Shown piece after piece: positions 8,618 through 60,870 of a stretch of 64,000 nucleotides of DNA. The stretch covers positions 12,705,823 through 12,769,822 of the forward strand of contig OZ024789.1 of assembly GCA_964017065.1 (NCBI GenBank), read 5' to 3'. The stretch is from Haliclona indistincta (lineage: Eukaryota > Porifera > Demospongiae > Haplosclerida > Chalinidae). The position numbers and the translations under genes were made by a program. Within the stretch, counting starts at the first letter, position 1, and each line of letters starts with the position of its first letter. The notes beneath the pieces are model-generated. The model saw only the letters and a list, made by a program, of their open reading frames with translations, made no database searches and was not told where the DNA came from.

Positions 8618-8666
<49 letters not shown>

Positions 8667-8903: not shown

Positions 8904-9053
8904 CTGAGAGAGAAACAGAGAGGCAAGCTATATGATGGTATAACCAACACAATATGTCATAATCTTGAATAATGCATTATTGTTTGTGGAAGAATTTAGC
9001 GTTTTATCTTGTGAAGTGTGTGTCTTACACTGTGATGAAGACTTTTTTCTTAC

Positions 9054-9206: not shown

Positions 9207-9248
9207 CTGCGAACAAACAGAAAGATGAGTGAGTGAATGAACGATAGG

Positions 9249-15459: not shown

Positions 15460-15516
<57 letters not shown>

Positions 15517-16500: not shown

Positions 16501-16550
16501 TAGGACATCCTAAGGATGCTCTAAAATATAGGTATCCTTAGGTATGACCT

Positions 16551-23346: not shown

Positions 23347-23536
23347 ATGGTATTTGACTCAGTAGGCACAATCCTCGCCATCCTCTTGTCAAGGAGTTAC
23401 AGCGTCGTGTTGAGAAGGATGAGAGCGATGAGACAACTGTTGATCTTGCTCGAGTGATGTTTGACACCGCCATATTAAGATCAGGCTACACTCTGCCGGA
23501 CTCTAGCTCTTTCACTGGTCGTATTGAGAGAATGCT
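23347..23536 (+). pseudogene. HSP90B1: GRP94 C-terminal exon truncated by satellite
   Basis: A CT-rich acceptor is followed by an exon encoding PRHPLVKELQRRVEKDESDE through RSGYTLPDSSSFTGRIERML. At codon RIERM-L the sequence passes directly into the 33-bp satellite (AGCTTATACTTACTAG), giving an in-frame TAG. The homologous exon at 7649-7852 continues normally (LRLSVGMDSDAP, then GTAAGC), so the junction marks a rearrangement breakpoint. Confidence 0.8.
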
Positions 23537-24692: not shown

Positions 24693-24925
24693 TACCGCGT
24701 TCACACTACGCGCTAAAACATAGCCGAACCGGGCCGGCCCGGTTGCAAATCTCTGACAGTATGAACGCAACTGAACTGAGCTACAACTGAACTGAACTGC
24801 ACCATCGCGGCACACCAACCATAGGTGGGCCTCTTCCAGCACGGTTCGGTTGTGTCGGAACTTTGATCATAAAGTGTGGCCCGGTTCGGTTCGGCCCGGT
24901 TCTAACGTGCAGTGTGAACGGGGTA
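24693..24925. mobile_element. 233-bp MITE inserted in the satellite (TTA duplication)
   Basis: The ends are inverted: TACCGCGTTCACACTACGCG and, on the reverse complement of the right end, TACCCCGTTCACACTGCACG. The interior is rich in CCGGTTCGG-type motifs. TTA flanks both sides (24690-24692, 24926-24928), and the satellite unit resumes exactly where it left off. Probably PIF/Harbinger-like by duplication; no coding capacity. Confidence 0.9.
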
Positions 24926-30900: not shown

Positions 30901-33900
30901 TATACTTACTAGTCAGTGTATTATTAGTTAGCTTATGCTTACTAGTCAGTGTATTATTAGTTAGCTTATATACTTACTAGTCAGTGTATTATTAGCTAGC
31001 TTATACTTTCTAGTCAGTGTATTATTAGCTAGCTTATACTTACTAGTCAGTGTATTATTAGCTATCTTATACTTACTAGTCAGTGTATTATTAGTTAGCT
31101 TATATACTTACTAGTCAGTGTATTATTAGCTAGCTTATACTTACTAGTCAGTGTATTATTAGCTAGCTTATACTTACTAGTCAGTGTATTATTAGTTAGC
31201 TTATATACTTACTAGTCAGTGTATTATTAGTTAGCTTATACTTACTAGTCAGTGTATTATTAGTTAGCTTATGCTTACTAGTCAGTGTATTATTAGTTAG
31301 CTTATACTTACTAGTCAGTGTATTATTAGTTAGCTTATACTTACTAGTCAGTGTATTATTAGTTAGCTTATACTTACTAGTCAGTGTATTATTAGTTAGC
31401 TTATACTTACTAGTCAGTGTATTATTAGTTAGCTTATACTTACTAGTCAGTGTATTATTAGTTAGCTTATGCTTACTAGTCAGTGTATTATTAGTTAGCT
31501 TATATACTTACTAGTCAGTGTATTATTAGCTAGCTTATACTTACTAGTCAGTGTATTATTAGCTAGCTTATACTTACTAGTCAGTGTATTATTAGCTAGC
31601 TTATACTTACTAGTCTGTGTATTATTAGTTAGCTTATACTTACTAGTCAGTGAATTATTAGCTAGCTTATACTTACTAGTCAGTGTATTATTAGCTAGCT
31701 TATACTGACTAGTCAGTGTATTATTAGCTAGCTTATACTTACTAGTCAGTGTATTATTAGTTAGCTTATACTTACTAGTCAGTGTATTATTAGCTATCTT
31801 ATACTTACTAGTCAGTGTATTATTAGTTAGCTTATATACTTACTAGTCAGTGTATTATTAGCTAGCTTATACTTACTAGTCAGTGTATTATTAGCTAGCT
31901 TATACTTACTAGTCAGTGTATTATTAGTTAGCTTATATACTTACTAGTCAGTGTATTATTAGCTAGCTTATACTTACTAGTCAGTGTATTATTAGTTAGC
32001 TTATACTTACTAGTCAGTGTATTATTAGCTATCTTATACTTACTAGTCAGTGTATTATTAGTTAGCTTATATACTTACTTGTCAGTGTATTATTAGCTAG
32101 CTTATACTTACTAGTCAGTGTATTATTAGCTAGCATATACTTACTAGTCAGTGTATTATTAGTTAGCTTATATACTTACTAGTCAGTGTATTATTAGTTA
32201 GCTTATACTTACTAGTCAGTGTATTATTAGTTAGCTTATGCTTACTAGTCAGTGTATTATTAGTTAGCTTATACTTACTAGTCAGTGTATTATTAGTTAG
32301 CTTATACTTACTAGTCAGTGTATTATTAGTTAGCTTATACTTACTAGTCAGTGTATTATTAGCTAGCTTATACTGACTAGTCAGTGTATTATTAGCTAGC
32401 TTATACTTACTAGTCAGTGTATTATTAGTTAGCTTATACTTACTAGTCAGTGTATTATTAGCTATCTTATACTTACTAGTCAGTGTATTATTAGTTAGCT
32501 TATATACTTACTAGTCAGTGTATTATTAGCTAGCTTATACTTACTAGTCAGTGTATTATTAGCTAGCTTATACTTACTAGTCAGTGTATTATTAGTTAGC
32601 TTATATACTTACTAGTCAGTGTATTATTAGCTAGCTTATACTTACTAGTCAGTGTATTATTAGTTAGCTTATACTTACTAGTCAGTGTATTATTAGCTAT
32701 CTTATACTTACTAGTCAGTGTATTATTAGCTAGCTTATACTTACTAGTCAGTGTATTATTAGCTAGCATATACTTACTAGTCAGTGTATTATTAGTTAGC
32801 TTATATACTTACTAGTCAGTGTATTATTAGTTAGCTTATACTTACTAGTCAGTGTATTATTAGTTAGCTTATGCTTACTAGTCAGTGTATTATTAGTTAG
32901 CTTATACTTACTAGTCAGTGTATTATTAGTTAGCTTATACTTACTAGTCAGTGTATTATTAGTTAGCTTATACTTACTAGTCAGTGTATTATTAGCTAGC
33001 TTATACTGACTAGTCAGTGTATTATTAGCTAGCTTATACTTACTAGTCAGTGTATTATTAGTTAGCTTATACTTACTAGTCAGTGTATTATTAGCTATCT
33101 TATACTTACTAGTCAGTGTATTATTAGTTAGCTTATATACTTACTAGTCAGTGTATTATTAGCTAGCTTATACTTACTAGTCAGTGTATTATTAGCTAGC
33201 TTATACTTACTAGTCAGTGTATTATTAGTTAGCTTATATACTTACTAGTCAGTGTATTATTAGTTAGCTTATACTTACTAGTCAGTGTATTATTAGTTAG
33301 CTTATGCTTACTAGTCAGTGTATTATTAGTTAGCTTATACTTACTAGTCAGTGTATTATTAGTTAGCTTATACTTACTAGTCAGTGTATTATTAGTTAGC
33401 TTATACTTACTAGTCAGTGTATTATTAGTTAGCTTATACTTACTAGTCAGTGTATTATTAGTTAGCTTATACTTACTAGTCAGTGTATTATTAGTTAGCT
33501 TATGCTTACTAGTCAGTGTATTATTAGTTAGCTTATATACTTACTAGTCAGTGTATTATTAGCTAGCTTATACTTACTAGTCAGTGTATTATTAGCTAGC
33601 TTATACTTACTAGTCAGTGTATTATTAGCTAGCTTATACTTACTAGTCTGTGTATTATTAGTTAGCTTATACTTACTAGTCAGTGAATTATTAGCTAGCT
33701 TATACTTACTAGTCAGTGTATTATTAGCTAGCTTATACTGACTAGTCAGTGTATTATTAGCTAGCTTATACTTACTAGTCAGTGTATTATTAGTTAGCTT
33801 ATACTTACTAGTCAGTGTATTATTAGCTATCTTATACTTACTAGTCAGTGTATTATTAGTTAGCTTATATACTTACTAGTCAGTGTATTATTAGCTAGCT

Positions 33901-36389
33901 TATACTTACTAGTCAGTGTATTATTAGCTAGCTTATACTTACTAGTCAGTGTATTATTAGTTAGCTTATATACTTACTAGTCAGTGTATTATTAGTTAGC
34001 TTATACTTACTAGTCAGTGTATTATTAGTTAGCTTATGCTTACTAGTCAGTGTATTATTAGTTAGCTTATACTTACTAGTCAGTGTATTATTAGTTAGCT
34101 TATACTTACTAGTCAGTGTATTATTAGTTAGCTTATACTTACTAGTCAGTGTATTATTAGTTAGCTTATACTTACTAGTCAGTGTATTATTAGTTAGCTT
34201 ATACTTACTAGTCAGTGTATTATTAGTTAGCTTATGCTTACTAGTCAGTGTATTATTAGTTAGCTTATATACTTACTAGTCAGTGTATTATTAGCTAGCT
34301 TATACTTACTAGTCAGTGTATTATTAGCTAGCTTATACTTACTAGTCAGTGTATTATTAGCTAGCTTATACTTACTAGTCTGTGTATTATTAGTTAGCTT
34401 ATACTTACTAGTCAGTGAATTATTAGCTAGCTTATACTTACTAGTCAGTGTATTATTAGCTAGCTTATACTGACTAGTCAGTGTATTATTAGCTAGCTTA
34501 TACTTACTAGTCAGTGTATTATTAGTTAGCTTATACTTACTAGTCAGTGTATTATTAGTTAGCTTATATACTTACTAGTCAGTGTATTATTAGCTAGCTT
34601 ATACTTACTAGTCAGTGTATTATTAGCTAGCTTATACTTACTAGTCAGTGTATTATTAGTTAGCTTATATACTTACTAGTCAGTGTATTATTAGCTAGCT
34701 TATACTTACTAGTCAGTGTATTATTAGTTAGCTTATACTTACTAGTCAGTGTATTATTAGCTATCTTATACTTACTAGTCAGTGTATTATTAGTTAGCTT
34801 ATATACTTACTAGTCAGTGTATTATTAGCTAGCTTATACTTACTAGTCAGTGTATTATTAGCTAGCTTATACTTACTAGTCAGTGTATTATTAGTTAGCT
34901 TATATACTTACTAGTCAGTGTATTATTAGTTAGCTTATACTTACTAGTCAGTGTATTATTAGTTAGCTTATGCTTACTAGTCAGTGTATTATTAGTTAGC
35001 TTATACTTACTAGTCAGTGTATTATTAGCTAGCTTATACTTACTAGTCAGTGTATTATTAGCTAGCTTATACTGACTAGTCAGTGTATTATTAGCTAGCT
35101 TATACTTACTAGTCAGTGTATTATTAGTTAGCTTATATACTTACTAGTCAGTGTATTATTAGTTAGCTTATACTTACTAGTCAGTGTATTATTAGTTAGC
35201 TTATGCTTACTAGTCAGTGTATTATTAGTTAGCTTATATACTTACTAGTCAGTGTATTATTAGCTAGCTTATACTTACTAGTCAGTGTATTATTAGCTAG
35301 CTTATACTTACTAGTCAGTGTATTATTAGCTAGCTTATACTTACTAGTCTGTGTATTATTAGTTAGCTTATACTTACTAGTCAGTGAATTATTAGCTAGC
35401 TTATACTTACTAGTCAGTGTATTATTAGCTAGCTTATACTGACTAGTCAGTGTATTATTAGCTAGCTTATACTTACTAGTCTGTGTATTATTAGTTAGCT
35501 TATACTTACTAGTCAGTGTATTATTAGCTATCTTATACTTACTAGTCAGTGTATTATTAGTTAGCTTATATACTTACTAGTCAGTGTATTATTAGCTAGC
35601 TTATACTTACTAGTCAGTGTATTATTAGCTAGCATATACTTACTAGTCAGTGTATTATTAGTTAGCTTATATACTTACTAGTCAGTGTATTATTAGTTAG
35701 CTTATACTTACTAGTCAGTGTATTATTAGTTAGCTTATGCTTACTAGTCAGTGTATTATTAGTTAGCTTATACTTACTAGTCAGTGTATTATTAGTTAGC
35801 TTATACTTACTAGTCAGTGTATTATTAGTTAGCTTATACTTACTAGTCAGTGTATTATTAGTTAGCTTATACTTACTAGTCAGTGTATTATTAGTTAGCT
35901 TATACTTACTAGTCAGTGTATTATTAGTTAGCTTATGCTTACTAGTCTGTGTATTATTAGTTAGCTTATATACTTACTAGTCAGTGTATTATTAGCTAGC
36001 TTATACTTACTAGTCAGTGTATTATTAGCTAGCTTATACTTACTAGTCAGTGTATTATTAGCTAGCTTATACTTACTAGTCTGTGTATTATTAGTTAGCT
36101 TATACTTACTAGTCAGTGAATTATTAGCTAGCTTATACTTACTAGTCAGTGTATTATTAGCTAGCTTATACTGACTAGTCAGTGTATTATTAGCTAGCTT
36201 ATACTTACTAGTCAGTGTATTATTAGTTAGCTTATACTTACTAGTCAGTGTATTATTAGCTATCTTATACTTACTAGTCAGTGTATTATTAGTTAGCTTA
36301 TATACTTACTAGTCAGTGTATTATTAGTTAGCTTATACTTACTAGTCAGTGTATTATTAGTTAGCTTATGCTTACTAGTCAGTGTATTA
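24926..36389 (-). repeat. 33-bp satellite array (reverse), segment 2, with higher-order structure
   Basis: About 11.5 kb of 33/35-bp units. Rare variants (TATACTGACT, GTGAATTATT, GCTATCTTAT, TATGCTTACT, TATATACTTA) recur in a fixed order. Spacing of the TATACTGACT variant is often about 731 bp (27472 to 28203, 33005 to 33736, 35437 to 36168), which indicates a higher-order repeat. A larger block repeats at about 3.5 kb (28.2-29.5 kb versus 31.7-33.0 kb). No gene. Confidence 0.95.
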
Positions 36390-38481
36390 TCATTGCCGAT
36401 AGGCAATGATATGTAGGGATGACCACGAATTAAGATGGCGGCAACTCATGTGTGAAAATTAGTTTTCGCACATATCTCTTTTGTTATACATTTCTACTGC
36501 ATTTTAACTATCTCTGAGGGAATCTGAAATGTAAGCGCTTGTAGGAAGTCCATGAAAGTCGCCGGGATTGCTTGCTCGACGACGAAAATCAAGATGGCGA
36601 CTCTCAGGGAGCAAGTTGCAGATCTTCGCTGTTTTAGCGTTTATCGAAATTCCAGACATCTAGGATTGATCAGGCAATTGTTCTGAGCATGGAAATACCT
36701 TTGGCGAAGCTGGCAGACGTTTCTAAAGAGGTAAAACAAAATCGCCGCCCACGCGAATTGTTCATCTTCTTTCTTCTTCTTCTTCTTCTTCTTCTTCTTC
36801 TTTTGACAAGCCTAGCGCTGTCCTGAGTGAACGAATCACTATCAAACCTGCACCATCGCACGTGTATATATCTGGGGTAGTGCACTTAGTGCTTAGATAG
36901 GATCCAAACACTACCAGAAGCGAGTAATCCTTGAAAAACATGGTTTTTGGACCGTTTTGGGCTGTAGAAGAGCGACTCCATTAATTAACCCTCTTGTCGC
37001 TGCTGATCATTGACTCCGCCCATATCAGTTTTGAAAGTGAGCTCGGTTCTCGCTTTCTCTCTGCTCATGGGCGCTTCAGCGCGCAAGCTAGAGCCTAGAG
37101 GTATGAAGAAGCAGTATACCATACCCTGGGTAACACTGATCTGTCTATGCTGTCATCATGACCCACGGTAGGCGCGAACCGGACGACGGTGATGCTACCC
37201 GATCTAGCAGGCTAGGTTTCTTACACTAGCTACGTGGCGTGAGCTGTACCTATAGGACCCCTGTGCTGTTGACAACTGGACGTTGGTCATTTTAAATGGC
37301 TAGTAGCCTCTGTGATCGTGATATCGCCATCAACAAGGCTCTACTAGGCGTGTCTACTCCGGCGAATCCTCTATCCCGGCGGACTCAGAGTCTTCCAGCC
37401 ATGATCACCATAGTGTTCCACTGAGTTGTCAGCATTAGTCTCTTCTTCATCCATTACAGTGCTAGGAAATATCACGTTGTCAACTCAACCTCTCTAACTA
37501 ATTGAACCTTTTCGTGATTGCCGATAATAACATTCCATGTTCCTTGACTCTCTGACTATAGAGGTTATGCACCTTCTCATCTACTAGCTAGTAACTGCTG
37601 CTCACAGAGTTGTAAAAATGAAATAACAGCTAGCATAGAATACAGCTGATAATTTTAAACTGATAGTGATCAAAAAAGTAACAGGAACAAGTAAAGTAAA
37701 AAAGTTTTAATAAAAAAAACTAAAAAGTGTAGGGATGACTCTTGCAAAAGTAAAGGAACAAGATGGAATAATGCTTGCAAAAGTAAAAGAACAAGATGGG
37801 ATGATGCTTGCAAAAGTAAAGGAACAAGATGGGATAATGCTTGCAAAAGTAAAAGAACAAGATGGGATGATGCTTGCAAAAGTAAAGGAACAAGATGGAA
37901 TAATGCTTGCAAATGTAAAAGTCCCAAGTATCCCTACATCAGCGGCTTGAAGGAGGACGCAGTCCGATGAAGTAATTGACGGTTGTAAATAAATATAGAG
38001 GTATCTGTTTAGGAGGACGCAGTCCGATGAAGTAGTTGACAGTTGTAAATAGCTAGAGGTATCTGTGTTTGGAGGACGCAGTCCGATGAAGTAATTGACG
38101 GTTGTAAATAACTAGAGGTATCTGTGTTTAGGAGGACGCAGTCCGATGAAGTAATTGACGGTTGTAAAAGGTGTAGGAAAAGGATTCCGCATCAATTTTG
38201 TCAGTTGAACGTCATCGCAGCAAGCCGCTGATGTAGGGATACTTGGGACTTTTACATTTGCAAGCATTATTCCATCTTGTTCCTTTACTTTTGCAAGCAT
38301 CATCCCATCTTGTTCTTTTACTTTTGCAAGCATTATCCCATCTTGTTCCTTTACTTTTGCAAGCATCATCCCATCTTGTTCTTTTACTTTTGCAAGCATT
38401 ATTCCATCTTGTTCCTTTACTTTTGCAAGAGTCATCCCTACACTTTTTAGTTTTTTTTATTAAAACTTTTTTACTTTACTT
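36390..38481. mobile_element. 2.1-kb insertion in the satellite, unclassified, containing a foldback
   Basis: The satellite is interrupted between GTGTATTAT and TATTAGTTAG, with TAT (or TTAT) shared by both edges as a possible target duplication. The left edge starts with the hairpin CATTGCCGATAGGCAATG. The interior to 37690 has unique-looking DNA with two 'AAGATGGCG' motifs and a TTC repeat (36772-36802), but no recognised gene. The right edge coincides with the end of the foldback described separately. Confidence 0.65.
37692..38480. repeat. Foldback: about 258-bp inverted arms around a 60-bp tandem repeat
   Basis: Left arm 37692-37949 and right arm 38221-38480 are near-perfect reverse complements. 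Each arm holds a poly-A-rich end and about six 33-bp units (GCTTGCAAAAGTAAAGGAAC plus AAGATGGGATAAT). Between them are four units of about 60 bp starting AGGAGGACGCAGTCCGATGA. The mirrored open frames in the arms reflect the repeat, not protein. Confidence 0.9.
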
Positions 38482-39690
38482 TTATTAGTTAGCTTATACT
38501 TACTAGTCAGTGTATTATTAGTTAGCTTATACTTACTAGTCAGTGTATTATTAGTTAGCTTATACTTACTAGTCAGTGTATTATTAGTTAGCTTATACTT
38601 ACTAGTCAGTGTATTATTAGCTAGCTTATACTTACTAGTCAGTGTATTATTAGCTAGCTTATACTTACTAGTCAGTGTATTATTAGCTAGCTTATACTTA
38701 CTAGTCAGTGTATTATTAGTTAGCTTATACTTACTAGTCAGTGTATTATTAGCTAGCTTATACTTACTAGTCAGTGTATTATTAGCTAGCTTATACTTAC
38801 TAGTCAGTGTATTATTAGTTAGCTTATACTTACTAGTCAGTGTATTATTAGCTAGCTTATACTTACTAGTCAGTGTATTATTAGTTAGCTTATACTTACT
38901 AGTCAGTGTATTATTAGTTAGCTTATACTTACTAGTCAGTGTATTATTAGTTAGCTTATACTTACTAGTCAGTGTATTATTAGTTAGCTAATACTTACTA
39001 GTCAGTGTATTATTAGTTAGCTTATACTTACTAGTCAGTGTATTATTAGCTAGCTTATACTTACTAGTCAGTGTATTATTAGTTAGCTTATACTTACTAG
39101 TCAGTGTATTATTAGTTAGCTTATACTTACTAGTCAGTGTATTATTAGTTAGCTTATACTTACTAGTCAGTGTATTATTAGTTAGCTTATACTTACTAGT
39201 CAGTGTATTATTAGTTAGCTTATACTTACTAGTCAGTGTATTATTAGCTAGCTTATACTTACTAGTCAGTGTATTATTAGCTAGCTTATACTTACTAGTC
39301 AGTGTATTATTAGTTAGCTTATACTTACTAGTCAGTGTATTATTAGTTAGCTTTTACTTACTAGTCAGTGTATTATTAGTTAGCTTATACTTACTAGTCA
39401 GTGTATTATTAGTTAGCTTATACTTACTAGTCATTGTATTATTAGCTAGCTTATACTTACTAGTCAGTGTATTATTAGCTAGCTTATACTTACTAGTCAG
39501 TGTATTATTAGCTAGCTTATACTTACTAGTCAGTGTATTATTAGCTAGCTTATACTTACTATTCAGTGTATTATTAGCTAGCTTATACTTACTAGTCAGT
39601 GTATTATTAGCTAGCTTATACTTACTAGTCAGTGTATTATTAGTTAGCTTATACTTACTAGTCAGTGTATTATTAGCTAGCTTATACTAA
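38482..39690 (-). repeat. 33-bp satellite array (reverse), segment 3
   Basis: Continuation of the satellite after the 2.1-kb insertion. It ends in the same unique sequence (AACAAGGTACACATGCACAC) that bounds the arrays at 5368 and 60870. Confidence 0.95.
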
Positions 39691-42993: not shown

Positions 42994-45900
42994 TCAGCTT
43001 GTGACCAACCATTCCTTGAGCTCAGTTGCTGTTTTCTTCTCACCAACTGTGTCTAGAGCAGTGATGATAGTGCTCCAGGTGTAGGGAACCGTTTCGGCTC
43101 GTTTCCATTCCTTAAACACCTCAATGAAAAGCTCAATTTGATCATTAGTTTGAGCCTTGAATGAGTCCAGTGTAGATGTCTCGATACTCAGCATTATTCC
43201 TACTAGGTACCACTTGGTTGGTACTTTAGTTGCAACATGAACCATCAGATCAGCAGTTGATGGAGACTTGGCTGTATAAGAGTTTATCATCAGTAATATA
43301 AACAAACAAGGCCATCATGTGACTTACATCTTAATGTATGGGGCACTACTGTTGGTGTCTGGGGCACTGCTGCTGGTGTCTGGGGCACTGCTGCTGGTGT
43401 CTGGGGCACTGCTGCTGGTGTCTGGGGCACTGCTGCTGGTGTCTGGGGCACTGCTGCTGGTGTCTGGGGCACTGCTGCTGGTGTCTGGGGCACTGCTGCT
43501 GGTGTCTGGGGCACTGCTGCTGGTCTCAAGGTTGTTGAAAGAACTACATGGATGTTATATGATATTATGTACACACAATAATCAATCATCTCTTACCTTC
43601 TGTCTGAGGATAAAGTATTTGAAAAGCTTTGAGACTTGACACTCCAGTAACAACCATCTTGTGACTAATATGAGCCGCTTCATGGGCTGACAACAGCTGG
43701 AACTCAAATCCACAGTGTGGAATCCGTTTACCAATTTTGAAGTTTAATATTGAAGATTTAGAAATCTAATAAAGGTTCACAGATCATGTGTTACGTTATT
43801 AGACTACATGCAGTGTGCCATGTTAATATACCTGAGAGGGAGATGATAGAGGAACTATTTTCCATTGCTCTATCTTTTCTTCCTGTTGATCTAGCTCAAT
43901 AGCAGGACCAGTATCATTATCAATGACAATCTCAAATGTTGTTTGGTCCTCATTCCACAGTTCATATCTCTGTCTCACTTTCTAAAAATAAATGAAGCAC
44001 CTAAGGTGCAGATGCCTCGGTGGAATGACACATTATCCACAAACACAACTATCCACCATTCCACAAACACAGCAACTGCAGATGCATGTATACAGGATTT
44101 ATGTACAGCAATCACAATGCAGTGCTTTAGTTATGCAATCAGAAGCCAATCAGTGCTAACCACAATTCAACTGGGCGTGTCTACAGTGTTTAGCACAGCA
44201 CAGCAGTTACACGCATACCACGAGCGAGATAGCTCCACAGCTTGCTTACATAATTTCTCTGGACCTGCGCTGCTATCCTGTAGTAAATTCTAACCTATCA
44301 GCTTCTAGGCAGTCAACTGTGGACAGCAAGTTTGCCTCCAGTGAAGAAGTCCAGATCGCCAGCAATGGTGAACAAATAGCGCCATAACTCAGGAACTAAG
44401 CTTCGTATAAAGTTTTCACATGTTCGAAAGCGAGATAATACCGTGCTCTACTTGCATTGCTAGTTTCAGAGCTTAACTTTCAGCGTGCGCTACAAAACCG
44501 AACCAGCCGTGAGCAATTCACACAGTAACTTACGCACTAAGCTTTAAAATCAAACTTCTGAAAATTCAAATCCGAGCAAGTATCGATTTCTACCCGTGCT
44601 GCTTGTTTCAGCGATTAGTTTTCAGCGAGCTATGAGAAATCGTTGCGACAGACTGACTGACAGAATGACTGACTGACACCACGATTACTGTATGCCCCGT
44701 GGCTCCGCCCACCGAGGCATAATTATGTCAGTACATGTATAGTACATTGCTTCGATCAGTAAGATATGGCTCAATATCATTAGCTTCATGCATATTTATA
44801 CCTGTAGATTAGGCTCAAGATCCCTCACAACCACAAAGTGGAAATCAACAGCAGTCAGAGGACTGGCTAGTCGTTGCTTGTAGAACATGAAGGCTGTACA
44901 GAGTGTGTCTGTATCCTCTGGTGCTGTTTCTCCTAGTAATGAGAACTGCTTCAGCTTGATGGCTCCATACTGAGTGTGTGAGCTGAACAATCCCTCTCGT
45001 TCACGGAATCTGTACGGCAGCTGACTCTGTGAGCACTTGGCGATGATGAACTTGAATTGGGAGCATTGATCCTCACTGCGTACAACAGCGCAATGCTGTA
45101 TGTTGACAGACACCTCTTTTATGAACTCTATGCTGGATGAGACCCAGTAGATGGCACTGATCAACTGCCTGTTCTCAGGGAACTCAAACTGGCCGGCTGG
45201 AATCACCTTCACGCCCACACTGACAGTCACTCCAGGAGGAACAGCACCTTCAGGGATCTCAATGAAGAACCCATAGCCAGGCCACTCTACTTTCTGAGGC
45301 TTGTCTCCCACAACCTCCAGTACAGTCTCCCTGTACACTTCGACACCATGCAGGAAGTCTGCACCACATGCACAGTCACAAACTGAAGGAGATGCATTAG
45401 TAGCTTACCTGGAGCAACTGCTAAATAATCTGCTTGCACTCCAGCTTCCATAACACACCTTGGTTTGATAGCTACAGTATAGTGAGCTACTAGCAGCAGC
45501 TGTGAGCTGGGCAGCATCACTCACCATTTTCTTGATTGCCAGCACTGAGTGAGAGTTCTTGTTTGTGAAGCAGTTGTTTGTAGCTGATTTTCAGTTGATC
45601 AACTGTGGAATACAGTAACAAGACATTAATCACTCACTCTAATACTCACATTTCTCTAGCATCAGTTGACCATCACTTTCCAACATTGAGATCTGTTGAT
45701 CTCTAGCATAGGCCATTCTCTTGGTTTGCTCTAATACTCTTAGAAGCTCTTGCTGTTCCTCCTCACTAGCTGTCAGCTTGGTCTCATACTCATGGATGAC
45801 TATCACAGTGTGCATACAGTGAGATGCAGAGCTGCAGTATAGAGATACTCACCATCTGCAGTGAGGTCCACCTGTGTGGTCTCGTCACTTGCTAGCTTAG

Positions 45901-46758: not shown

Positions 46759-49628
46759 ATTGTTACTAACCGTGTTTGTCATGTTTCTCATCTCTCTCAT
46801 CAATATTGGTCTCATGCTGCTGTGAACACCACAACACATCAACCACTGTCACCAACCACACACACCTGCTTCACCTGATCCTGCACTAGTTGGGCGTGGC
46901 CCGACCTCAGCCTTAACGGGAGGTCGGGTGTCACGCGTTCACCTTATTCGTTCTACTGCACGATTTGGTGCAGCACCAATCAGATTGCAGTATTTCAATA
47001 GTTTCTACAAGACATGTTCACCGCACTACATTATACATGCACTTTAACAAGAGTACCTGCCTACTACATCATATCCATGACAACACTAACAATCGTAATG
47101 GCTACTAGTACTGGTGATGAGAGAGAGTGTGTGATTCGTGCTGGTAGAGACCTAGGCTATGCTTCTATGAAGGACCGCCTTAACACTTCAACCACGCTTG
47201 AACTCTACTTCAGCTGCACTTAGCTTAATGATAATCATTGTTGTTTTAATAATAATCATGACAATAATGGTACAAGTAACATACAAGCCCTCAGGACAAC
47301 TTTTGTGAACGCGTGACACCCGACCTCCCGTTAAGGCTGAGGTCGGGCCACGCCCAACTAATCCTGCACCTGGAGTCTGAGCACTCTAACCTCCTCCTCC
47401 ACCTCTCTGATCCTCCTCTGACGAGACTTTATTGTTTGCTCACTCTTCTGTAGCTAATGAAGGAAACAGCTCACTCACTACACACTCTACATTATTGACT
47501 GTATCTAGATCTGACCAATGGTCACACTAACCTGTTGCTGTAGCTGTCTATGCTCAGTGTCTAGTTCTATCAGTCTCATCCTGTCTCTAGCCTCTTGTAC
47601 AGGTACTGGTCCCTTTATCCTGGCCTCTCTCAGTCTCTTCTGGTACTCTGTGTTGTTGCTCAGTGTCTCTCTCTCCATCACTCTCTCCACACACCACTGC
47701 CCACTAGTGTCCTGGACTGTATGGAGGAGATGAGCTGTTATGTGCAGTCCACCACTGTCAGTGTGTGCATCAGCTGCTGTAGCTACTGCTGATTACTGCA
47801 TGGACACACACTGTGCTCACTTAGCTCTATAATACTAGTGCCAGCCTTGTGCGCCAATCCTCCAAACACTAGTATCCAGACACAGTGGGCTCCTAGATGC
47901 AACACTGACACTGAGTGCCAGTATCGTCGTGTCACTGAATCAGGTAGTGATGGTAGCTATAGAACACAATAAAACAACACATTATATGAACCATACAATA
48001 CTACATGACATGTACAGTATCTCATTATAATAGAATCAAATTATAAAGTTCTCAAGTCAAGTGGAACTATTCCTCACACACATCAAACCACAACCAAGTT
48101 AATTAGTTATAACTAAGTTAATAACCAATAATAAGTAATAACAACAAGAAAGCAGTTAATTAGTCTATTGTACAGTTCATCATTCTGTGAAATGTCATGA
48201 TCATCTTGTTAGTAGACAATGTGTGAGCACATTCACAATGTGCAGGTTGTAACTAAATTCATGTGAAATACCTTGATCCATTGGTTAGTATCATATAACC
48301 ACATATCACTCAGTGTAGAACCACCATCTCCTCCACTCATCACAAACACAGGACCAGTAATGTGTGATGCAGCATGGGCATTTCTCCCCTCAGGCCATTG
48401 GACAGACTGACTAACTGGTTTCTTGATCTTGCTCCAGTTCTGAGAAGACAAAGATATCATAGACTCCTAGAAATATCACAGGCTATAGACTAATGCAATA
48501 TGCTTGATACACTGATGTTGTGCAAGATTGGAGCAATGAATACTCAAATGATGATATGTATGAAGAATGTATTATAATGATTGTGTGTATCAGTGATTAT
48601 GAGATCAATATGATGTGATCAGATCACACAAGAGTGAATCAGTGCTATACTATTCATACAGTGACTACAGCACTCACCACAGAATGTCTCTCCAGATCTA
48701 CAATATACAAATCATCAGAGCAGCTGCTTGATGGAGTGAGACCACCAAACATAGCAGCCCTCTTCCCTTCCACTGTTGTTAGTGTGAACCAATAACATGG
48801 AGGAGGAGCTTGTCCTGTGACTACTGGTGAGCTCCACCCATCATCTGGAGGACAATAACAACTCATTAGTTATAACACATAAACAGTAACTTTGAGACAA
48901 CATGTATTATCATCTCTCTCATTATGAGAGATGGGTCTATGAACGAGGCTACTCACTATACTATAAGAGGACTATACTGAGACAACACAGTATCACTCAC
49001 TTGTGGACAGAGAGAAAATGTGTTGTTCATTGGTACATACATTACCATACACTTTTTGATACTGTGCTCCATGTTGTGGTGATGATGGGACAGCAGGACC
49101 CCGCCCTCCCACCACATACAAGAGGTCCTCCTCTCCATCAGTGAAGTGCACCATTCCACACCTGTACTTCTGCATTGGTGACCCATCTTCTGTTGTTGAG
49201 GGAGCCAACATCCTCCATTGCAGGGTGGAGGTGCTCAGTGTGTGAACACTGTTGTGGTAGCAGCCACTGTGACCACAGTAACCACCGAAATAGTGCAGCT
49301 TATTCCTGACAGCAACACAGGAATAGCCCCACACTCCCAGTGGAGGTGTTCCACTAGTGGTGCGCTGCTCCCAGCAACCAGAGTTCACGTCGAACACCTC
49401 CACACTGGAGAAAAACTGACGCTTCTCAGCGCTATCGTGCACCTTAGGCTTTCCATCCTGGTATCCGCCCCACAGGTAAAGATGATCGCCAGCAACAGCT
49501 GTGCCGTGTTCATCACGACCAGCGGGTTCCCTCCATCCATCCACTGTGAGGAGTAACAATCAGTCACTGTTTGAACACCTGAAACAACTCATGAACTCAC
49601 CTTCTCGCTGCTGCTGAGGAGCGGACAT
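42994..49628 (-). CDS. Kelch / coiled-coil / ZU5 / UPA-like / Death-domain protein, copy B
   Basis: The most complete copy. Start at 49628 (MSAPQQQRE, exon 49601-49628). Kelch exons 49001-49543, 48678-48844, 48272-48439 and about 47821-47933 give six GG-type blades (LYLWGG, LHYFGG, LYVVGG, AAMFGG, FVMSGG, ILVFGG), hence a probable six-bladed propeller. Coiled-coil exons: 47532-47773, 47361-47453 plus 46866-46886 (one exon split by a MITE), 46771-46819, 46560-46622, 45963-46175, 45853-45909, 45650-45799, 45525-45602, 45409-45458. The ZU5 exon is 44802-45358, UPA-like exons 43832-43981 and 43597-43765, the TPAAVPQ linker 43328-43524, and the Death domain 42991-43271. The 48439-47821 junction is not resolved in phase. 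ZU5-UPA-Death forms an autoinhibitory signalling module in UNC5 and PIDD; a kelch sensor in front suggests a cytosolic scaffold or receptor (inference). Not RAG2: the only kelch likeness is generic. The MITE places a TAG in the exon unless splicing avoids it. Confidence 0.82.
43335..43524 (-). repeat. Coding 21-bp minisatellite in copy B
   Basis: About nine units encoding TPAAVPQ on the minus strand, here on a separate exon from the Death domain, whereas in copies A and C both are in one exon. Confidence 0.92.
44000..44720. mobile_element. Insertion of family 'GCCTCGGTGG', copy 2, in an intron
   Basis: Starts with hairpin GCACCTAAGGTGC (about 43998-44010), then ATGCCTCGGTGG (44012), and ends CCGCCCACCGAGGCAT at 44720. 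The interior shares TCAGCGTGC, CCGAGATAAT and GACAGACTGACTGACA-type motifs with 39772-40346. The equivalent intron of copy C (63367-63453) lacks it. Confidence 0.75.
46176..46510. repeat. GA/GGGA polypurine tract in an intron
   Basis: Complement of the tract at 1-281, in the same intron of the paralogue. Contains an internal near-duplicate of about 130 bp. Confidence 0.9.
46887..47360. mobile_element. 474-bp MITE with 9-bp target duplication inside a coding exon
   Basis: Inverted ends of about 55 bp start TAGTTGGGCGTGGCCCGACC on both strands. ATCCTGCAC is duplicated exactly (46878-46886 and 47361-47369). Removing element and duplication restores a continuous coiled-coil exon (LRLQVQDQVKQ, then GTGTGT donor) of the kelch/ZU5 gene. 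A 9-bp duplication and long inverted ends suit a Mutator-like (MULE) MITE. It holds a 69-codon open frame (47014-47223) with no recognised similarity. Confidence 0.93.
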
Positions 49629-52710: not shown

Positions 52711-53426
52711 TATAGACCAAAAGAGGTTACTGAGGAGGAATATTCCAAATTATTTTTACAAATCATTCTCAAAGGTACACTAGACCTGTGCTAACATTGC
52801 TTGTGTATTCATCTCTGCTGATCCAGGACTCACAAACCCCACTAGCTAAGATCCATTTCACAGCTGAAGGAGAGGTGACATTCAGAGCCATCCTCTTCGT
52901 ACCAACAGTAAGTAACTCCCATCATCACTACTGTCACACCATCTCCATCACAGACCACACCTCATGACATGTTCAACAACTACGCTAAATCATCGGACAA
53001 GATCAAGATGTACGTCAGACGTGTGTTCATCACAGACGATTTCGAGGATCTTATGCCACGATACCTTGGATTCATTCGTGGAGTGGTCAGTACCAAATTT
53101 TTTATTCACCAGAATTTTACAAAAATAAGTTGTTGATTTCAAATTTTTGAATGATTACCAATTGAAATTTTATGATCGCCCATTTCAATTTTTGTATGTA
53201 GTCAAATTTTATGTTCATTGTCCTAATTTTTGATAGGTCGATTCTGATGATCTCCCACTAAATGTCTCTCGTGAGACACTCCAGCAACACAAGCTGTTGA
53301 AAGTGGTGAAGAAGAAGCTGGTAAGGAAAGCCCTGGACATGATGAAGAAAATGGACAAAGAGACTTATGACAAGTTCTGGAAGGTAAGAAACAAACCATC
53401 TCTCTTCATTAAACTCTCTCTCTTCT

Positions 53427-53513
<87 letters not shown>

Positions 53514-54241
53514 TCTCAGGAGTTCAGCACTAATCTGAAGCTTGGTGTAGTTGAGGATTTCACTAACAAGAGTCGTATTGCTAAGCTGCTTCGATTCCAG
53601 TCCTCTAATGATCCAGAATCACTCACATCACTGGACGAGTACATTGAGAGAATGAAGGAAAAACAAGAACACATCTACTTCATGTCTGCTACCAGCAGGA
53701 AAGAGGTGGGTGTGGTCATGACGTCATCACTACCAGTAGGAAAGAATTTTAGTAGAGTGAGCTGATCAAAAGTTACTACATTCAAAAATGTTAGTGATGA
53801 AAATATTTAAAGAAACTAGTAATTTTGAAATAGAGCAAAATACTTGTGTTCAGTATTGTACATGTAGTGTGTTCAGATACATGTAATATTAACCCTCTAT
53901 CAGTATACGGTACCATAAACATAGAAAAGCTTTGACATTAATTTTTTGTCCAAAATGTTTCGTGTTTCAAGTTTGATCATGTCCAAATAATCAACCTGAG
54001 ACTACACTCCCTCTCACAATCTGAAACCATATTCAATATGCCCTTTTAGAAATAGTGGTCACTACCTGTACGAGGTGAAATCATGATTCTATCATAGCCT
54101 GTTAGTGTATCAGTGGTTCAATATGTGACCAGTACCAAGGCTGACTATAGCATGTTTGCACTGAGCCTCTGAGAAGAAGGAAATGTGAGCATTCAGTGTG
54201 TGGTGGGTGTGGTTGAAATACTCTACTTCTTTTTGTTGCAG

Positions 54242-54500
54242 ATTTCTGTACAAACTGAACTGGTTGTTGAGTTAGCCGACAAGTAGGCGGGGCTACCACT
54301 AATCTAGCTGCACTGAGAGCTCGTGATGTGCTCAGACTAGAGGCATGGCTGTGCCTGTATGGGAACAATCTATCGGAGGAGACCACTCCCATTGAGGCGG
54401 GGCTAGCATGGTGCATTAGTGAGTGTCAATGGATCTCAGTATGCTTGTTGTGTGTTAGGTAAGAGAAGGGAGCAATGTCCAGTACTGTCACAACCTGTCC
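54242..54500 (+). pseudogene. AMT: Aminomethyltransferase fragment, second copy
   Basis: Near-identical to 16242-16500: exon 54242-54418 with [12 protein letters not shown] and [20 protein letters not shown], and a partial exon from 54459. The same frame break at GACAAGTAGGCGG is present, so both copies descend from an already broken fragment or share an unusual splice. Confidence 0.75.
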
Positions 54501-54556
54501 TAGGACATCCTAAGGATGCTCTAAAATATAGGTATCCTTAGGTTTGACCTGGTCTG

Positions 54557-54930
54557 TGTACTAAGTATCCCGGGAGTCCCAGGATTGTCCTCAGTATCCC
54601 ATGTACATAGAGGGGTTAAATCCCATGTACTAAGTATCCCGGGAGTCCCAGGATTGTCCTCAGTATCCCATGTACATAGAGGGGTTAAATCCCATGTACT
54701 AAGTATCCCGTGAGTCCCAGGATTGTCCTCAGTATCCCATGTACATAGAGGGGGTTAAATCCCATGTACTAAGTATCCCGTGAGTCCCAGGATTGTCCTC
54801 AGTATCCCGTGTACATAGAGGGGTTAAATCCCATGTACTAAGTATCCCGGGAGTCCCAGGATTGCCCTCAGTATCCCGTGTACATAGAGGGGTTAAATCC
54901 CATGTACTAAGTATCCCGGGAGTCGGAGGA
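54557..54930 (+). repeat. 69-bp minisatellite array 3
   Basis: About five and a half units of the 69-bp family, much shorter than the arrays at 16551 and 21564, at the equivalent position downstream of AMT. Confidence 0.95.
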
Positions 54931-54944
54931 TTGTCCCATAATAC

Positions 54945-55012
54945 CCTCACTGACACACCCACTCAAGGGTGGTATGATACACTCACTGACACACCCACTC
55001 AAGGGTGGTATG
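54945..55012 (+). repeat. 36-bp minisatellite, left part (target of the RAG1-like element)
   Basis: Two units of GATACACTCACTGACACACC plus CACTCAAGGGTGGTAT. The array resumes at 59218 after the inserted element. Confidence 0.93.
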
Positions 55013-55463
55013 CACGGGTGTTTCTATCAATTATTACTATGTACACTTACTGACGTCACAAAACGCACGTGATGAACTTAGCAACCGCATAGCAACGTAC
55101 TGTTTAGTCACGCTATTCTCACCTGATGAGTTGCCCCTTGGTGATATTGAAAAACTAGCCTCATGGCCAGCAAGATCGTGTTACGAGCTTTACAATGATA
55201 TAAGCCTCAACCATCTTCTGCGCTAATTTTTTGCGTGAATCACTCCTTTGAAAAAGAAATATGAACCACTGTCTTCTCTTTGCTAAAGTTTTTGCAAGCC
55301 AGACGTTCAGTCAGGGTGAAAGAATAGGTCTTCTGGAAGTTGTAGCGACGGCATCATCTAGTGAAGTATTTTTTAAAGGAACTTTTGAAACGGGTAAGCG
55401 ATCACTATTATTTTAATCATGTGTATTCTGTACGGACAAGTGTAGTTTGTGCGTGAGTAAGTA

Positions 55464-58400
55464 TTAGTTCTTCTTGTACCGTTTTGGAGACGGCTGCCTA
55501 TCTATATTGTCAGGGCAAACTTCCCTGAAGTGTTCCCTCATTGTAGCCATTAGTCTCTGTACGTCGTTGGGCATGTTCCCATAAGCCCGGCTCAAGTGAT
55601 TGAACCGAGCATGGATGCTTTCAGCACCTTGCTCCCCCATCATGCCCAGTCCTACTCTCCATTTCTGGATGAATTCTACTACATGGTCCTCCAGCATGTG
55701 TAGTTTTGGTGTTATTGTAGCTGTCGGAAATGTAGCTCTATAATAACTCAAGAACTCATCAATTCTGTTTTCTGTGGACACAATAGTAATTGATGTTACT
55801 TTCATTTTTGCAGTGCTGCACTTACGTAGGTCTGTCACTTCCACCTCTGTAAAATGCCTGCTACTATTCAATCGTTGGTGACAATTAGAGAACAGCAACA
55901 GGGCTTTGCTATGCCTATTGGCAACTTGCTGTGCCTTATCCTCCAGCTCAGGGCATCTATCTGAGGCAACCTGAGGGATCGCTCCTGCTATTCTGTCAAT
56001 GTTGACAGACTGGAAGCAGGTTAGAGATGCATGCATGTCACCAAGATGCATACCTTGAGGCATTTGTGAGCATGATTCCCCGTAAAGGTCCCACCATAGT
56101 AGGCTTCACGATGTACATGCATGGATGACAACGTTTTGTCCAGACATCTGAGGAACGGTCCGTCCTCAAGTAGAAAGACTTTTTTAAGTTCTTCGGTTGT
56201 TTTCCCAATTCTTGTTTCCTTTTGACAACATAATAGTAACAGATTCATATCGTCATGATTATGCAACTTACAAGCTCTCTCAGTCTTTGGTTTGCACTAA
56301 CAGCTTCACTACAAACAGCTTGTATGTTGACCTGGTTATTGCCGCTGTCTTGCTGAATTGCAAGATTTGCCAAGATGTTTTTCAACAGCTGTACAAACTC
56401 GGACAGGTCATTTAAGTTGTTCTTGTCGTCACATAGCTGATGTACTAATTGGCTGTATTTTTTGAAAGACTCTCTGTCCGCTTCATCAACTGATGACATC
56501 CTGGCTAGCTCTAGATCAAGGATGTGACAATCTTCTTCTAGTAAGCTCCACAGGCGGAAAAAAATTCCGAGTGTGATGTGCAAGCCTGGTGGACTGACCT
56601 AAGAATCAAATTTTAAATGTGTTTTCTAACTTTGCTTTTCATTAACCTGTGTGAGAGGAACATCGAGCATGTAAGGCCGGATTACATTGTTGTAGTTCTT
56701 GGCCTGCTTAGTGTCTCCCTTGCCCTTTGTTGCAAACTGCAAGTGGTCTGCTTGAAGTGTGTCTAGGCTACGTGAAGCAGTGTTGTCACTGAAGCGTTCT
56801 CGCCGAGAGATCTTCATTTTGTCATTGACAATATGACACCAAAGACAGCAATGACGACCTGATGATGTAGTAGTGTATAAATTCTATACAAGCAATTTTA
56901 CTGTTTAGGCATACCGGAAGCACCTGAGATACCGTACAGGTTGCAGAGTAACTCATAGTCCCCAAACATGAAGACACGGATCTTTTTGTCTCTGTAAATT
57001 AAACTATGATTTTTTTTGATTATAGTGAAAGATTATTACCTCCACTGTGTCTGTTGCAGTGTTGTGACCTGTGCTCTGAAGCGCTCAAGTGCTACTGTCA
57101 GATTTGCAGGTGAGTCTTTCGCTTCGAAGAGACAGAAAACACATGTGTTCTGGACCGAATTAGGGGCAGGGACGTTAACCAACTGGAAGGACATCTTGAA
57201 TGACTTTCCCCCCTTGTCACCGCCAATCTTAATCCATATCTCACTTTGTGGAATGCCTTCAGGCCATGTGAGTTTGTTCAAACTATAAGTGAGCAACATA
57301 ATCCTTTGTTTTACATGTTGTGTATGTTGATACCTATCATTCTGGTCTAAAATCTGTAGTGCCTTTGCAACAAGATCTGGGGTGTACACTAGTGGAGCTG
57401 GTCGCAAGTCAATACCATTCTTCAGCTGAAAGGAAAAAGGAACTGACTCTCCAGCAAGGTTATCTCCTATCTGTTCTGCCGACAGCTTTCTCATCTGCTT
57501 TTCACTCGCTATCTCTATTCCCCATGCCTTCATCCATCTGTTATGTAGTACATAGACTGTTTGCATAATGGACATTATAGTTTTCTTACCTCCTCATCAC
57601 TCTCATCTTATTCCAGGGTACTACTAGATCAGCCTTCATAGCAAGGGCATCTTGTGGTGTGATTGGCACCTTAAAGTCTGTGCTCTCAAGTAGACTTTGT
57701 CGTTGCTCTTTAGAGATGACAGAGAACTCATCCTGGAGCTGTGACGACGTTGCCTGTGGGCTTCCTCCACTCACTGTCTGTCTCACCAAGGCAAGTTGGT
57801 TTGACCTACCACGGATAGTTTTGAGACTAGCGTCAGATGAGCTGACACGAGAACTACTAATTTTTAGTAGTTTCAATGGCTATTGTAATAATGATAAGAT
57901 CATGTGAGTATCTTTTTTTAGATTTTACCTGGCCAGCTGTTGGTAGCTTGACAATCTGGTCAGTAGCTGCAGATGAATTCATCAAGCGTTTGAGTATGTT
58001 TGTAGCTGCTTTTTGCTCGATTGATGTTGGAGGAGCTGATAGTGGGCGAGATATGATCTGTGCAGCTGTTATTTGTGATGGTGAGTGTAGCCCAATGTTC
58101 ATGCAACCTGATTCCAGATGTGTTTTTAGGGCCCTCAACTCAACTACCTCTGTGCATGATGGTTTGTCACACTTGACAAGGAGTGAGCCGAGAACCTTCA
58201 AAACAACATCTGGAACCGGTGCAAATGCTGACTGCTGATGGACATCTGAGCATGATTGGCATACCATCTTGGGAGTAATGCACTCAGCACACACCAGTTT
58301 ACGGCATGGTGTCTCTAATGGCCTATCTACGATGCAACTACAGACTGTACACAAAAAGTCTTCTAGCTGCAAAACTGGTGGTGGAAGGAATCGTGAGGGT

Positions 58401-58795
58401 GTGAGTGGCTCAAACCCTCGCCAGCTGTCAGGAGCAGTTCTAATGGTTTGAGTGTTCTCCAAGCTTGGTCTTCCTCGGTTTTTTTGACCTTTTCTTGGTC
58501 TTCCTCCTCGTTGTTGTGAGGAGAAGAGATGGCATATTGAGCAGTCGTGTTCGGTGTGTGCTGTCCACTGCTGGACTACTAGAGAGCTTCTCGTCCCTTT
58601 GCTAAGAGAGTACTGCTTAGCCTTGGTACAGCAGTTGTGGCAAACATTGGGCGGGTGAATTCCTTGCTGGTCTCTAGTGATGTCCAGTCCAAGGCCCTCT
58701 AGTAGTGTGTCTCTAACCTCACTGCAAGGTTTGTGCGCTCCTTTGATCTTTACAGCACATACTCTACAGTGCCGATCCAGCTGGTTGTGGTCCAT
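55464..58795 (-). CDS. RAG1-like transposase (N-terminal zinc region, RING-like, DDE core)
   Basis: Exons: 57929-58795, 57590-57879, about 57339-57562, 57040-57287, 56915-56991, 56647-56858, 56272-56598, 56054-56218, 55826-56011 and 55464-55771. Start MDHNQLDRHCRVC at 58795. N-terminal zinc pairs C10/C13, C52/C55 (IHPPNVCHNC) and C85/C88 (HTEHDCSIC) match the RAG1 N-terminal pattern. AT-hook-like GGRPRKGQKNRGRP is at 97-110, a RING-like domain at 149-182 (CTVC...LETPC..LVCAEC...CQSC) and a zinc-finger stretch at 209-231. The core has a first acidic Asp (IGGDKGGKSFKMSF), a second (FGDYELL), zinc CxxC (HCCLWC), LHMLEDH (HxxxxH, spacing as RAG1 His937/His942) and a Glu in GEQGAESIHARF aligned with RAG1 Glu962. 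Odd: the RING histidine is replaced (RKLVC for KHVFC). Two introns (51 and 54 bp) are frame-neutral. The junction of the second and third exons does not phase cleanly, so a frameshift there is possible. Likely role: cut-and-paste transposition of its own element. Confidence 0.85.
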
Positions 58796-59217
58796 CTTTG
58801 AAGAGCTATTATGACATACAAAAAATACTTCAACTCTTTAGTTGTTTACTAGTTGTTAGAATGACTTGTAACCAAGCCTACTCACTGTTCTGATCTTGCC
58901 GCAAAACTGTACAAAGGAGGTGGCAACTCTCTGTATCTCTCTATTCAAATTTGAAATGTTGTTGCAGCTGTCATGTTTTTGGTGCGCAGTCTATTTTTGT
59001 TAATGCAAATGAATGCGCACACTTGTAGATGTGGTGTAGAGATGTACATGATCACGCAGTTTGCACATGTGGTGCTTGTTGTTTGTTAAAGTACTGTAAA
59101 GTCCATAGCAACCAAACAGCTTTTTGCTTGTGCGGTTGCTAAGCTAATGAATGCAATTAAACCCACGCATGTAATTAATTATTGTTATTGCTAAGTTTCC
59201 CCGAGAATTCAGCCGTG
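58796..59217. promoter_or_regulatory. 5' region of the RAG1-like gene and right end of the element
   Basis: Non-coding sequence between the start codon and the element terminus. It presumably holds the promoter and includes the subterminal repeat at 59131-59143. No further gene seen. Confidence 0.5.
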
Positions 59218-59500
59218 TATGATACACTCACTGACACACCCACTCAAGGGTGGTATGATACACTCACTGACACACCCACTCAAGGGTGGTATGATACACT
59301 CACTGACACACCCACTCAAGGGTGGTGTGATACACTCACTGACACACCCACTCAAGGGTGGTATGATACACTCACTGACACACCCACTCAAGGGTGGTGT
59401 GATACACTCACTGACACACCCATTCAAGGGTGGTATGATACACTCACTGACACACCCACTCAAGGGTGGTGTGATACACTCACTGACACACCCACTCTGC
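59218..59500 (+). repeat. 36-bp minisatellite, right part
   Basis: About eight units continuing the array interrupted at 55012. It joins GCCTCTGATCTCAGTTGCTA (59500-59520), which is the reverse complement of an ANKLE2 intron at about 9893-9915. Confidence 0.93.
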
Positions 59501-59821
59501 CTCTGATCTCAGTTGCTATGTTACTAGTGCCTGCATGGACTATGCGCTAATCTTCTCGCTTATTCTCTGGAAGTGTAACAGCACAAATTTGAGGTACAAT
59601 AATAACTTAGATGCAGCCGGATACGCCAATAGGAAGTATAAGTCTGATGCAGCATGACAAGTAGTTACCGCGCGCGAGTACATGCCCCGCATTAGTATCA
59701 TGTGTTGTCTATAGAATCGAGGCTAGTGTGGTAGCATACATAGATTTGCGTCATGGCCTGTTCATTATTATCAAAACGTACTGAATTTTAGACACTGTGT
59801 ATAAACATTCAGGCAACTATT
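59501..59821. other. Spacer with a fragment of ANKLE2 intron
   Basis: Apart from the ~30-bp ANKLE2 intron match, I see nothing in this stretch. No gene. Confidence 0.5.
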
Positions 59822-60870
59822 CAGTGTATTATTAGTTAGCTTATACTTACTAGTCAGTGTATTATTAGTTAGCTTATACTTACTAGTCAGTGTATTATTA
59901 GCTAGCTTATACTTACTAGTCAGTGTATTATTAGTTAGCTTATACTTACTAGTCAGTGTATTATTAGATAGCTTATACTTACTAGTCAGTGTATTATTAG
60001 CTAGCTTATACTTACTAGTCAGTGTATTATTAGTTAGCTTATACTTACTAGTCAGTGTATTATTAGATAGCTTATACTTACTAGTCAGTGTATTATTAGC
60101 TAGCTTATACTTACTAGTCAGTGTATTATTAGTTAGCTTATACTTACTAGTCAGTGTATTATTAGTTAGCTTATACTTACTAGTCAGTGTATTATTAGTT
60201 AGCTTATACTTACTAGTCAGTGTATTATTAGCTAGCTTATACTTACTAGTCAGTGTATTATTAGTTAGCTTATACTTACTAGTCAGTGTATTATTAGCTA
60301 GCTTATACTTACTAGTCTGTGTATTATTAGTTAGCTTATACTTACTAGTCAGTGTATTATTAGCTAGCTTATACTTACTAGTCAGTGTATTATTAGTTAG
60401 CTTATACTTACTAGTCAGTGTATTATTAGCTAGCTTATACTTACTAGTCAGTGTATTATTAGCTAGCTTATACTTACTAGTCAGTGTATTATTAGTTAGC
60501 TTATACTTACTAGTCAGTGTATTATTAGTTAGCTTATACTTACTAGTCAGTGTATTATTAGTTAGCTTATACTTACTAGTCAGTGTATTATTAGTTAGCT
60601 TATACTTACTAGTCAGTGTATTATTAGTTAGCTTATACTTACTAGTCAGTGTATTATTAGTTAGCTTGTACTTACTAGTCAGTGTATTATTAGTTAGCTT
60701 ATACTTACTAGTCAGTGTATTATTAGTTAGCTTATACTTACTAGTCAGTGTATTATTAGCTAGCTTATACTTACTAGTCAGTGTATTATTAGTTAGCTTA
60801 TACTTACTAGTCAGTGTATTATTAGTTAGCTTATACTTACTAGTCAGTGTATTATTAGTTAGCTTATACT
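59822..60870 (-). repeat. 33-bp satellite array (reverse), copy near gene C
   Basis: About 32 units of the same satellite, bounded on the right by the AACAAGGTACACATGCACAC flank shared with the other arrays. Confidence 0.95.

Follow-up and report, generated by a model that had tools for sequence, protein, structure and literature searches.

We analyzed a 64,000-nucleotide stretch of contig OZ024789.1 (hereafter the window), in which a mobile element of 4,205 base pairs (bp) carries a single gene on the minus strand, predicted to comprise 10 exons separated by 9 introns of 44-56 nucleotides (nt) and to encode a protein of 958 residues with no internal stops (the chance of 958 stop-free codons would be about 1e-20, were all codons equally likely). 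The initial annotation had described this as a RAG1-like transposable element with clear bounds. Its bounds and orientation were confirmed, as was the kinship of the N-terminus with RAG1. The element itself is very probably a Chapaev-type (CMC-group) DNA transposon of a demosponge, autonomous, probably young and moving by cut-and-paste, with a DUF1280 rather than a PF12940 core and a 4-bp rather than a 5-bp target-site duplication. A RAG1-type N-terminus and a DDE (Asp-Asp-Glu) core do occur in one predicted protein, as had been claimed, with matches to RAG1_imp_bd and DUF1280. The coordinates of all features are collected in Table 1.

The element lies in a 36-bp minisatellite (54941-55012 and 59217-59497) that is 97% uniform, and the empty-site test was built from this array itself: the flanks were joined, 0 to 8 bases were deleted, and the 36-bp period was scored. 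Removal of 4 bp restored the period at 304 of 312 positions (97.4%), the maximum, compared with 272-289 positions (87.8-91.5%) when 0-3 or 5-8 bp were removed instead. The duplicated bases read CATA on the minus strand and TATG on the plus strand. The pattern CACGGSTG occurs three times within the window (0.82 expected), and two of these occurrences are the ends of the element, CACGGGTG and CACGGCTG; a third 8-mer, CACGGCTG, stands at 44504-44511, outside the element. Since the ends match and the 4-bp duplication is intact in an array that is 97% uniform, the insertion appears to be recent. Among the listed BLAST matches of at least 150 bp that start within the element, the rows for which were all included, no other copy in the window was found. 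No empty site was available for comparison in the duplicated segment at 14896-16935, the 36-bp array being found beside the element only.

Further inward, the two ends share a subterminal inverted repeat. This pair is part of a local alignment between the 400-bp ends whose score none of 500 shuffles reached. Against regarding the pair as special, nine other inverted pairs of 12-19 nt occur inside the element. With up to 2 mismatches allowed, the 13-base core of the pair is matched in the window by its own two arms only, against 1.15 matches expected by chance, and at least 2 were found in 35 of 100 shuffles. The arm spacings of 51 and 61 bp differ by roughly one DNA turn and recall the unequal spacers of V(D)J signals. 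This spacing is a single case and could be chance; it could also be that the subterminal motif at 51 and 61 bp is a primitive form of V(D)J unequal-spacer pairing.

The gene had been annotated with nine exons, which we revised to ten. A 51-nt GT-AG in-frame stretch accounts exactly for the 17 residues by which the nine-exon form (975 residues) exceeds its relatives, and without it each of the three longer relatives gave a higher BLAST score (330 to 339, 321 to 327, and 203 to 211). All exons are predictions from sequence, and the introns are GT-AG. Residues are numbered in the 958-residue form; the PDB, profile and landmark searches and the whole-core alignment were made with the 975-residue form, and the Pfam scan was made with 975 and then 958 residues, with results that hardly differ. 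The longer relatives are P0001, P0002 (Hydra vulgaris LOC105850185) and P0003 (Amphiura), and five others, P0004-P0008, are exon-1 pieces only. In all five of these, the codon at the position of the intron-1 donor GT of the window gene encodes Val (hence GTN), which suggests that the intron-1 splice site is conserved across the exon-1 relatives.

Judged by sequence, the N-terminus is clearly related to RAG1. The 958-residue protein matched the Pfam family RAG1_imp_bd (1.4e-6, 28.5 bits, above the cut-off of 23.3), and a profile made from the window protein and P0001-P0003 returned mouse RAG1 101-376 as the first of 133 sequences matched (E = 8.8e-19). Because this profile also matched the RAG1 N-terminal chain 21wb (1.5e-10) over the stretch preceding the RING, the relation does not depend on the RING alone. 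When the single protein was compared with the PDB, it matched the RING-zinc domain of RAG1 (1rmd) at 8.5e-5 and RAG1 in full at 1.1e-4, closely followed by the RINGs of LNX (2.1e-4) and TRAF6 (2.4e-4). Between the zinc motifs and the RING sits the AT-hook-like segment GGRPRKGQKNRGRP, in which GGRP and NRGRP do not vary among the six exon-1 sequences (the window protein and P0004-P0008). A tree of the N-terminal region with 10 rows had full support at none of its 7 inner branches; it paired the window row with P0004 (90/89) and grouped the six exon-1 rows (81/84). The predicted structure of exon 1 alone, with a mean predicted local distance difference test score (pLDDT) of 43, was set aside.

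The RING-like segment of the initial annotation was borne out in part. Residues 144-229 account for the 1rmd match, but a Pfam scan reporting E values up to 10 gave no RING family for the window protein, and none matched P0004-P0008 at E up to 0.01; P0002 passed the RING cut-off (zf-C3HC4), and the RING models of P0001 (5e-6) came just under it. The position that we presume to be the fourth RING ligand is Lys in 6/6 exon-1 sequences, where RAG1 (CKHLFC), Hydra P0002 (CQHSFC) and P0001 (CDHMFC) have His. In P0004 a His stands one position earlier, in P0007 the first Cys is also absent, and P0003 is without the RING region. Because the His ligand is replaced by Lys and the Pfam RING families are unmatched, a full cross-brace zinc site is unlikely in this exon-1 group, and the finger may have lost E3 ligase activity.

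The core belongs to the Pfam family DUF1280 (PF06918; 1.8e-12, 47.8 bits, cut-off 25). The profile search named as a check in the initial annotation returned the RAG1 N-terminal match and DUF1280; for the RAG1 core profile PF12940, no match to this protein appeared at E values up to 10. As a positive control, mouse RAG1 596-1008 gave PF12940 at 5e-253 and no DUF1280 match at E up to 1. The core landmarks follow the RAG1 order, as claimed, with the predicted Glu 21 residues past the second His (20 in RAG1) and the same spacing, D-x18-C-x2-C, from the second Asp to CxxC. The ordered pattern arose in 0/20,000 core shuffles and in none of 120 control endoplasmins. A structure comparison gave RAG1 as the best fold matches (1.9e-6), though for a low-confidence model of a relative and not for the window protein. 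When a four-sequence profile was aligned over the whole core with RAG1 389-1008 by our own script, no landmark came into register and the score was under the shuffle mean. Kinship of the core with RAG1/Transib, as indicated by the ordered catalytic landmarks and the fold matches of the relative's low-confidence model, is therefore supported but not settled. Among the PDB matches listed, none was named as a solved Chapaev structure.

We assign the element to Chapaev, and not to the RAG-like (RAGL), Transib or N-RAG-TP elements, because of its duplication length, ends and motifs. According to PMC4079192, Chapaev elements are recognized by CAC/GTG ends, by duplications of 3 to 4 bp and by the motifs C(2)C, LH and H(4)H; all are present here, with CAC...GTG ends (CACGGGTG/CACGGCTG), a 4-bp duplication and the three motifs in order. 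Kapitonov and Koonin 2015 (PMC4411706) describe Chapaev transposases that carry this N-terminal domain and a RING, and propose an ancient fusion. The Chapa-RING subgroups, to which the element comes closest, share with it the CAC/GTG ends, the 4-bp duplication, the RAG1-type N-terminal zinc domain, a finger that is only RING-like in our protein, and a DDE core of DUF1280 type containing the C(2)C, LH and H(4)H motifs. Compared by published description, the element differs in its probable sponge host, Lys for the RING His, ten exons, 44-56-nt introns, and an AT-hook-like segment (GGRP...NRGRP) that separates the zinc motifs from the RING. The probable sponge member and the Lys are new; the architecture was already known. 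Among the open-licence papers listed, a search with Repbase outside it, we found no sponge Chapaev described, which is weak evidence of absence; in PMC4298943 the word sponge refers to an element named Spongebob. Hydra P0002 likewise joins a RING, a DUF1280 core and a RAG1-like N-terminus in one protein (28% identity with the window protein over 911 aligned columns), but keeps the RING His, and this isoform is without the C-terminal HxxxxH/Glu part.

Other known groups fit less well. Chapaev3 requires a 3-bp TWA duplication, whereas CATA has 4 bp. In the outline given by PMC7204232, RAGL and Transib duplications are 5 bp and Transib is without the RAG1 N-terminal region; Transib (HzTransib, PDB 6pqr) was accordingly ruled out by the 4-bp duplication and the N-terminal zinc region. 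N-RAG-TP of Aplysia, which PMC8355894 presents as the RAG1 N-terminal-like part alone, also places such sequence within a mobile element, but here the core exons lie between the same ends, which rules it out. In prokaryotic genomes, 15 and 38 stretches matched one or two peptide patterns, as did 82 stretches in viral contigs, and none encoded a relative.

It is unlikely, though it has to be weighed more seriously than any other alternative, that the host is not a sponge or that the element recently entered a sponge by horizontal transfer, so that it would say little about an ancient fusion. Horizontal transfer of Chapaev3 is documented in the account of PMC4079192, and a coral record (P0126), placed lower among the matches listed, is 77% identical to the endoplasmin query over half of that query. 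However, among the named records in the best 120 of 7,600, the window endoplasmin (exons placed with a human bait and joined) is closest to sponges, with identities over the whole query of 74% to Amphimedon queenslandica, 72% to Halichondria panicea and 70% to Dysidea avara; between Amphimedon and Halichondria in this list ranks a record labelled as nematode (63% over 91%). A demosponge, and with it the non-bilaterian host of the initial annotation, is thus very probable. P0001-P0003 share only 28-34% identity with the window protein, too little for a recent transfer from their lineages.

We consider it very improbable that a Chapaev element has here become a domesticated host gene and is no longer mobile: the intact frame and the lack of a second copy among window matches of at least 150 bp speak for domestication, but the matching ends and intact duplication in a uniform minisatellite point to a recent insertion. 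Slightly more remote is a true RAGL transposon (ProtoRAG/TransibSU-type), directly related to the V(D)J recombinase. The element shares N-terminal zinc motifs, a RING-zinc-like region, the order of catalytic and zinc landmarks and probably the core fold with vertebrate RAG1 and RAGL/ProtoRAG, and both the match to mouse RAG1 101-376 and the RAG1 top fold matches agree with this. Set against these are the duplication of 4 bp instead of 5 bp, a core matching DUF1280 and not PF12940 while the mouse RAG1 core does the reverse, and the gene content: by listing of open reading frames (ORFs) alone, no RAG2-like kelch gene was found within the 4,205 bp, the longest extra ORF having 125 residues and lying antisense to exon 1. 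A kelch ORF at 48993-49559, on the same strand as the element, was rejected as a RAG2-like partner; it lies 5.5 kb outside and is of KLHDC2-type (2.1e-21). Least probable of all is that predicted splicing alone joins two unrelated genes, one like the RAG1 N-terminus and one a transposase, for although the exons are predicted and P0004-P0008 cover exon 1 only, all the parts share a strand and are enclosed by a single pair of ends, the intron-1 Val recurs in all five exon-1 relatives, and the parts recur together in Amphiura P0003 (RAG1_imp_bd and DUF1280, both above cut-off), in Hydra P0002 (zf-C3HC4 above cut-off and DUF1280, with RAG1_imp_bd at 7.9e-4, below cut-off) and in P0001 (DUF1280, with the RING models just below cut-off).

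As a Chapaev transposon, the element would presumably move by means of its single protein. The N-terminal zinc region of this protein, its AT-hook-like region and its core would bind both ends (CACGGSTG and the subterminal repeats), and the protein would pair the two ends. A DDE active site in the RNase-H-like core, stabilized by zinc binding at CxxC/HxxxxH, would then cut, and the freed 3' ends would be joined to target DNA with a 4-bp stagger, hence the 4-bp duplication. The ends, the duplication, the reading frame after predicted splicing, the N-terminal RAG1 homology and the Chapaev-family core are observed; the cutting chemistry is assumed by analogy with RAG1/Transib, the roles of particular regions in end binding and zinc binding are putative, and the element may be active at present.

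The origin of the front half of RAG1 is a long-running question. From Hydra P0002, a cnidarian protein in which RING and core are joined, we infer that this fusion predates bilaterians; the sponge element supports and extends the published model. The initial annotation had raised the fusion of N-terminus and core before bilaterians; the Hydra layout supports it, and the answer had already been published in outline (PMC4411706). A bounded, complete element in a probable sponge agrees with that published view, in which the parts came together long before their use by vertebrates, and speaks against the idea that a Transib merged late with a separate N-RAG-TP element. More tentatively, and with some doubt on our part, the RAG1-type N-terminus, RING and RNase-H-like core might have been fused before sponges split off, placing the RAG1 layout, apart from core details, in a transposon of the animal ancestor; the RING of the sponge line would then have lost its His and been kept for a non-E3 role. 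Because the element's core belongs to Chapaev, the lineage of the RAG recombinase is brought no closer. With an intact frame and ends, the element is a practical candidate for studying how a Chapaev transposase cuts DNA.

Table 1. Features of the element and its predicted gene (positions in the window; residues in the 958-residue form)
Feature	Position	Strand	Remarks
Probable Chapaev-type DNA transposon, complete	55013..59217	-	4,205 bp; CACGG...CCGTG ends, 4-bp duplication; array restored on removing element plus one duplication
TATG target-site duplication, copy 1	55009..55012	+	
TATG target-site duplication, copy 2	59218..59221	+	
Terminal inverted 8-mer	55013..55020	+	CACGGGTG
Terminal inverted 8-mer	59210..59217	-	CACGGCTG
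Subterminal inverted repeat, left arm	55072..55089	+	18 nt, 89% complementary; 51 bp inward of terminal 8-mer
Subterminal inverted repeat, right arm	59131..59148	-	18 nt; 61 bp inward of terminal 8-mer
Exon 1	57929..58795	-	Start codon, RAG1-type N-terminal zinc motifs, AT-hook-like region, RING-like finger, C2HC finger
N-terminal zinc motifs CRVC / HPPNVCHNC / W-x2-H...CSIC	58520..58795	-	Residues 1-92; Chapa domain, RAG1 C1-C3 region
AT-hook-like segment	58466..58507	-	GGRPRKGQKNRGRP, residues 97-110
RING-like finger	58250..58351	-	Residues 149-182; Lys166 in His-ligand position
C-x4-C-x11-H-x4-C finger	58103..58171	-	Residues 209-231; downstream of RING
Exon 2	57590..57879	-	
Exon 3	57334..57537	-	
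51-nt in-frame intron	57283..57333	-	
Exon 4	57040..57282	-	First catalytic Asp
Predicted catalytic Asp 1	57216..57218	-	D476; counterpart of RAG1 D600
Exon 5	56915..56991	-	Second catalytic Asp
Predicted catalytic Asp 2	56958..56960	-	D546; counterpart of RAG1 D708
Exon 6	56647..56858	-	CxxC
CxxC zinc motif	56836..56847	-	Counterpart of RAG1 C727/C730
Exon 7	56272..56598	-	LH motif
LH motif	56578..56583	-	Counterpart of RAG1 L794-H795
Exon 8	56054..56218	-	
Exon 9	55826..56009	-	
Exon 10	55464..55771	-	HxxxxH, predicted catalytic Glu, stop codon
HxxxxH zinc motif	55683..55700	-	Counterpart of RAG1 H937/H942
Predicted catalytic Glu	55620..55622	-	E907; counterpart of RAG1 E962

Elsewhere in the window, a segmental duplication (52854-54936 and 14896-16935; 95.6% identical over 2,090 aligned columns) contains endoplasmin (GRP94) exons, and a run of N at 14696-14895 adjoins one of its copies. 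Endoplasmin also appears in pieces at 7646-9207 on the minus strand and at 23370-23537. A ZU5-type ORF is present at 1082-1726 on the plus strand and at 44796-45404 on the minus strand. Finally, a 33-bp tandem repeat occupies about 11.5 kb (24924-36390), and arrays of the 33-bp unit also occur at about 5362-7596 (in the opposite orientation), 23534-24692, 38482-39690 and 59816-60870.

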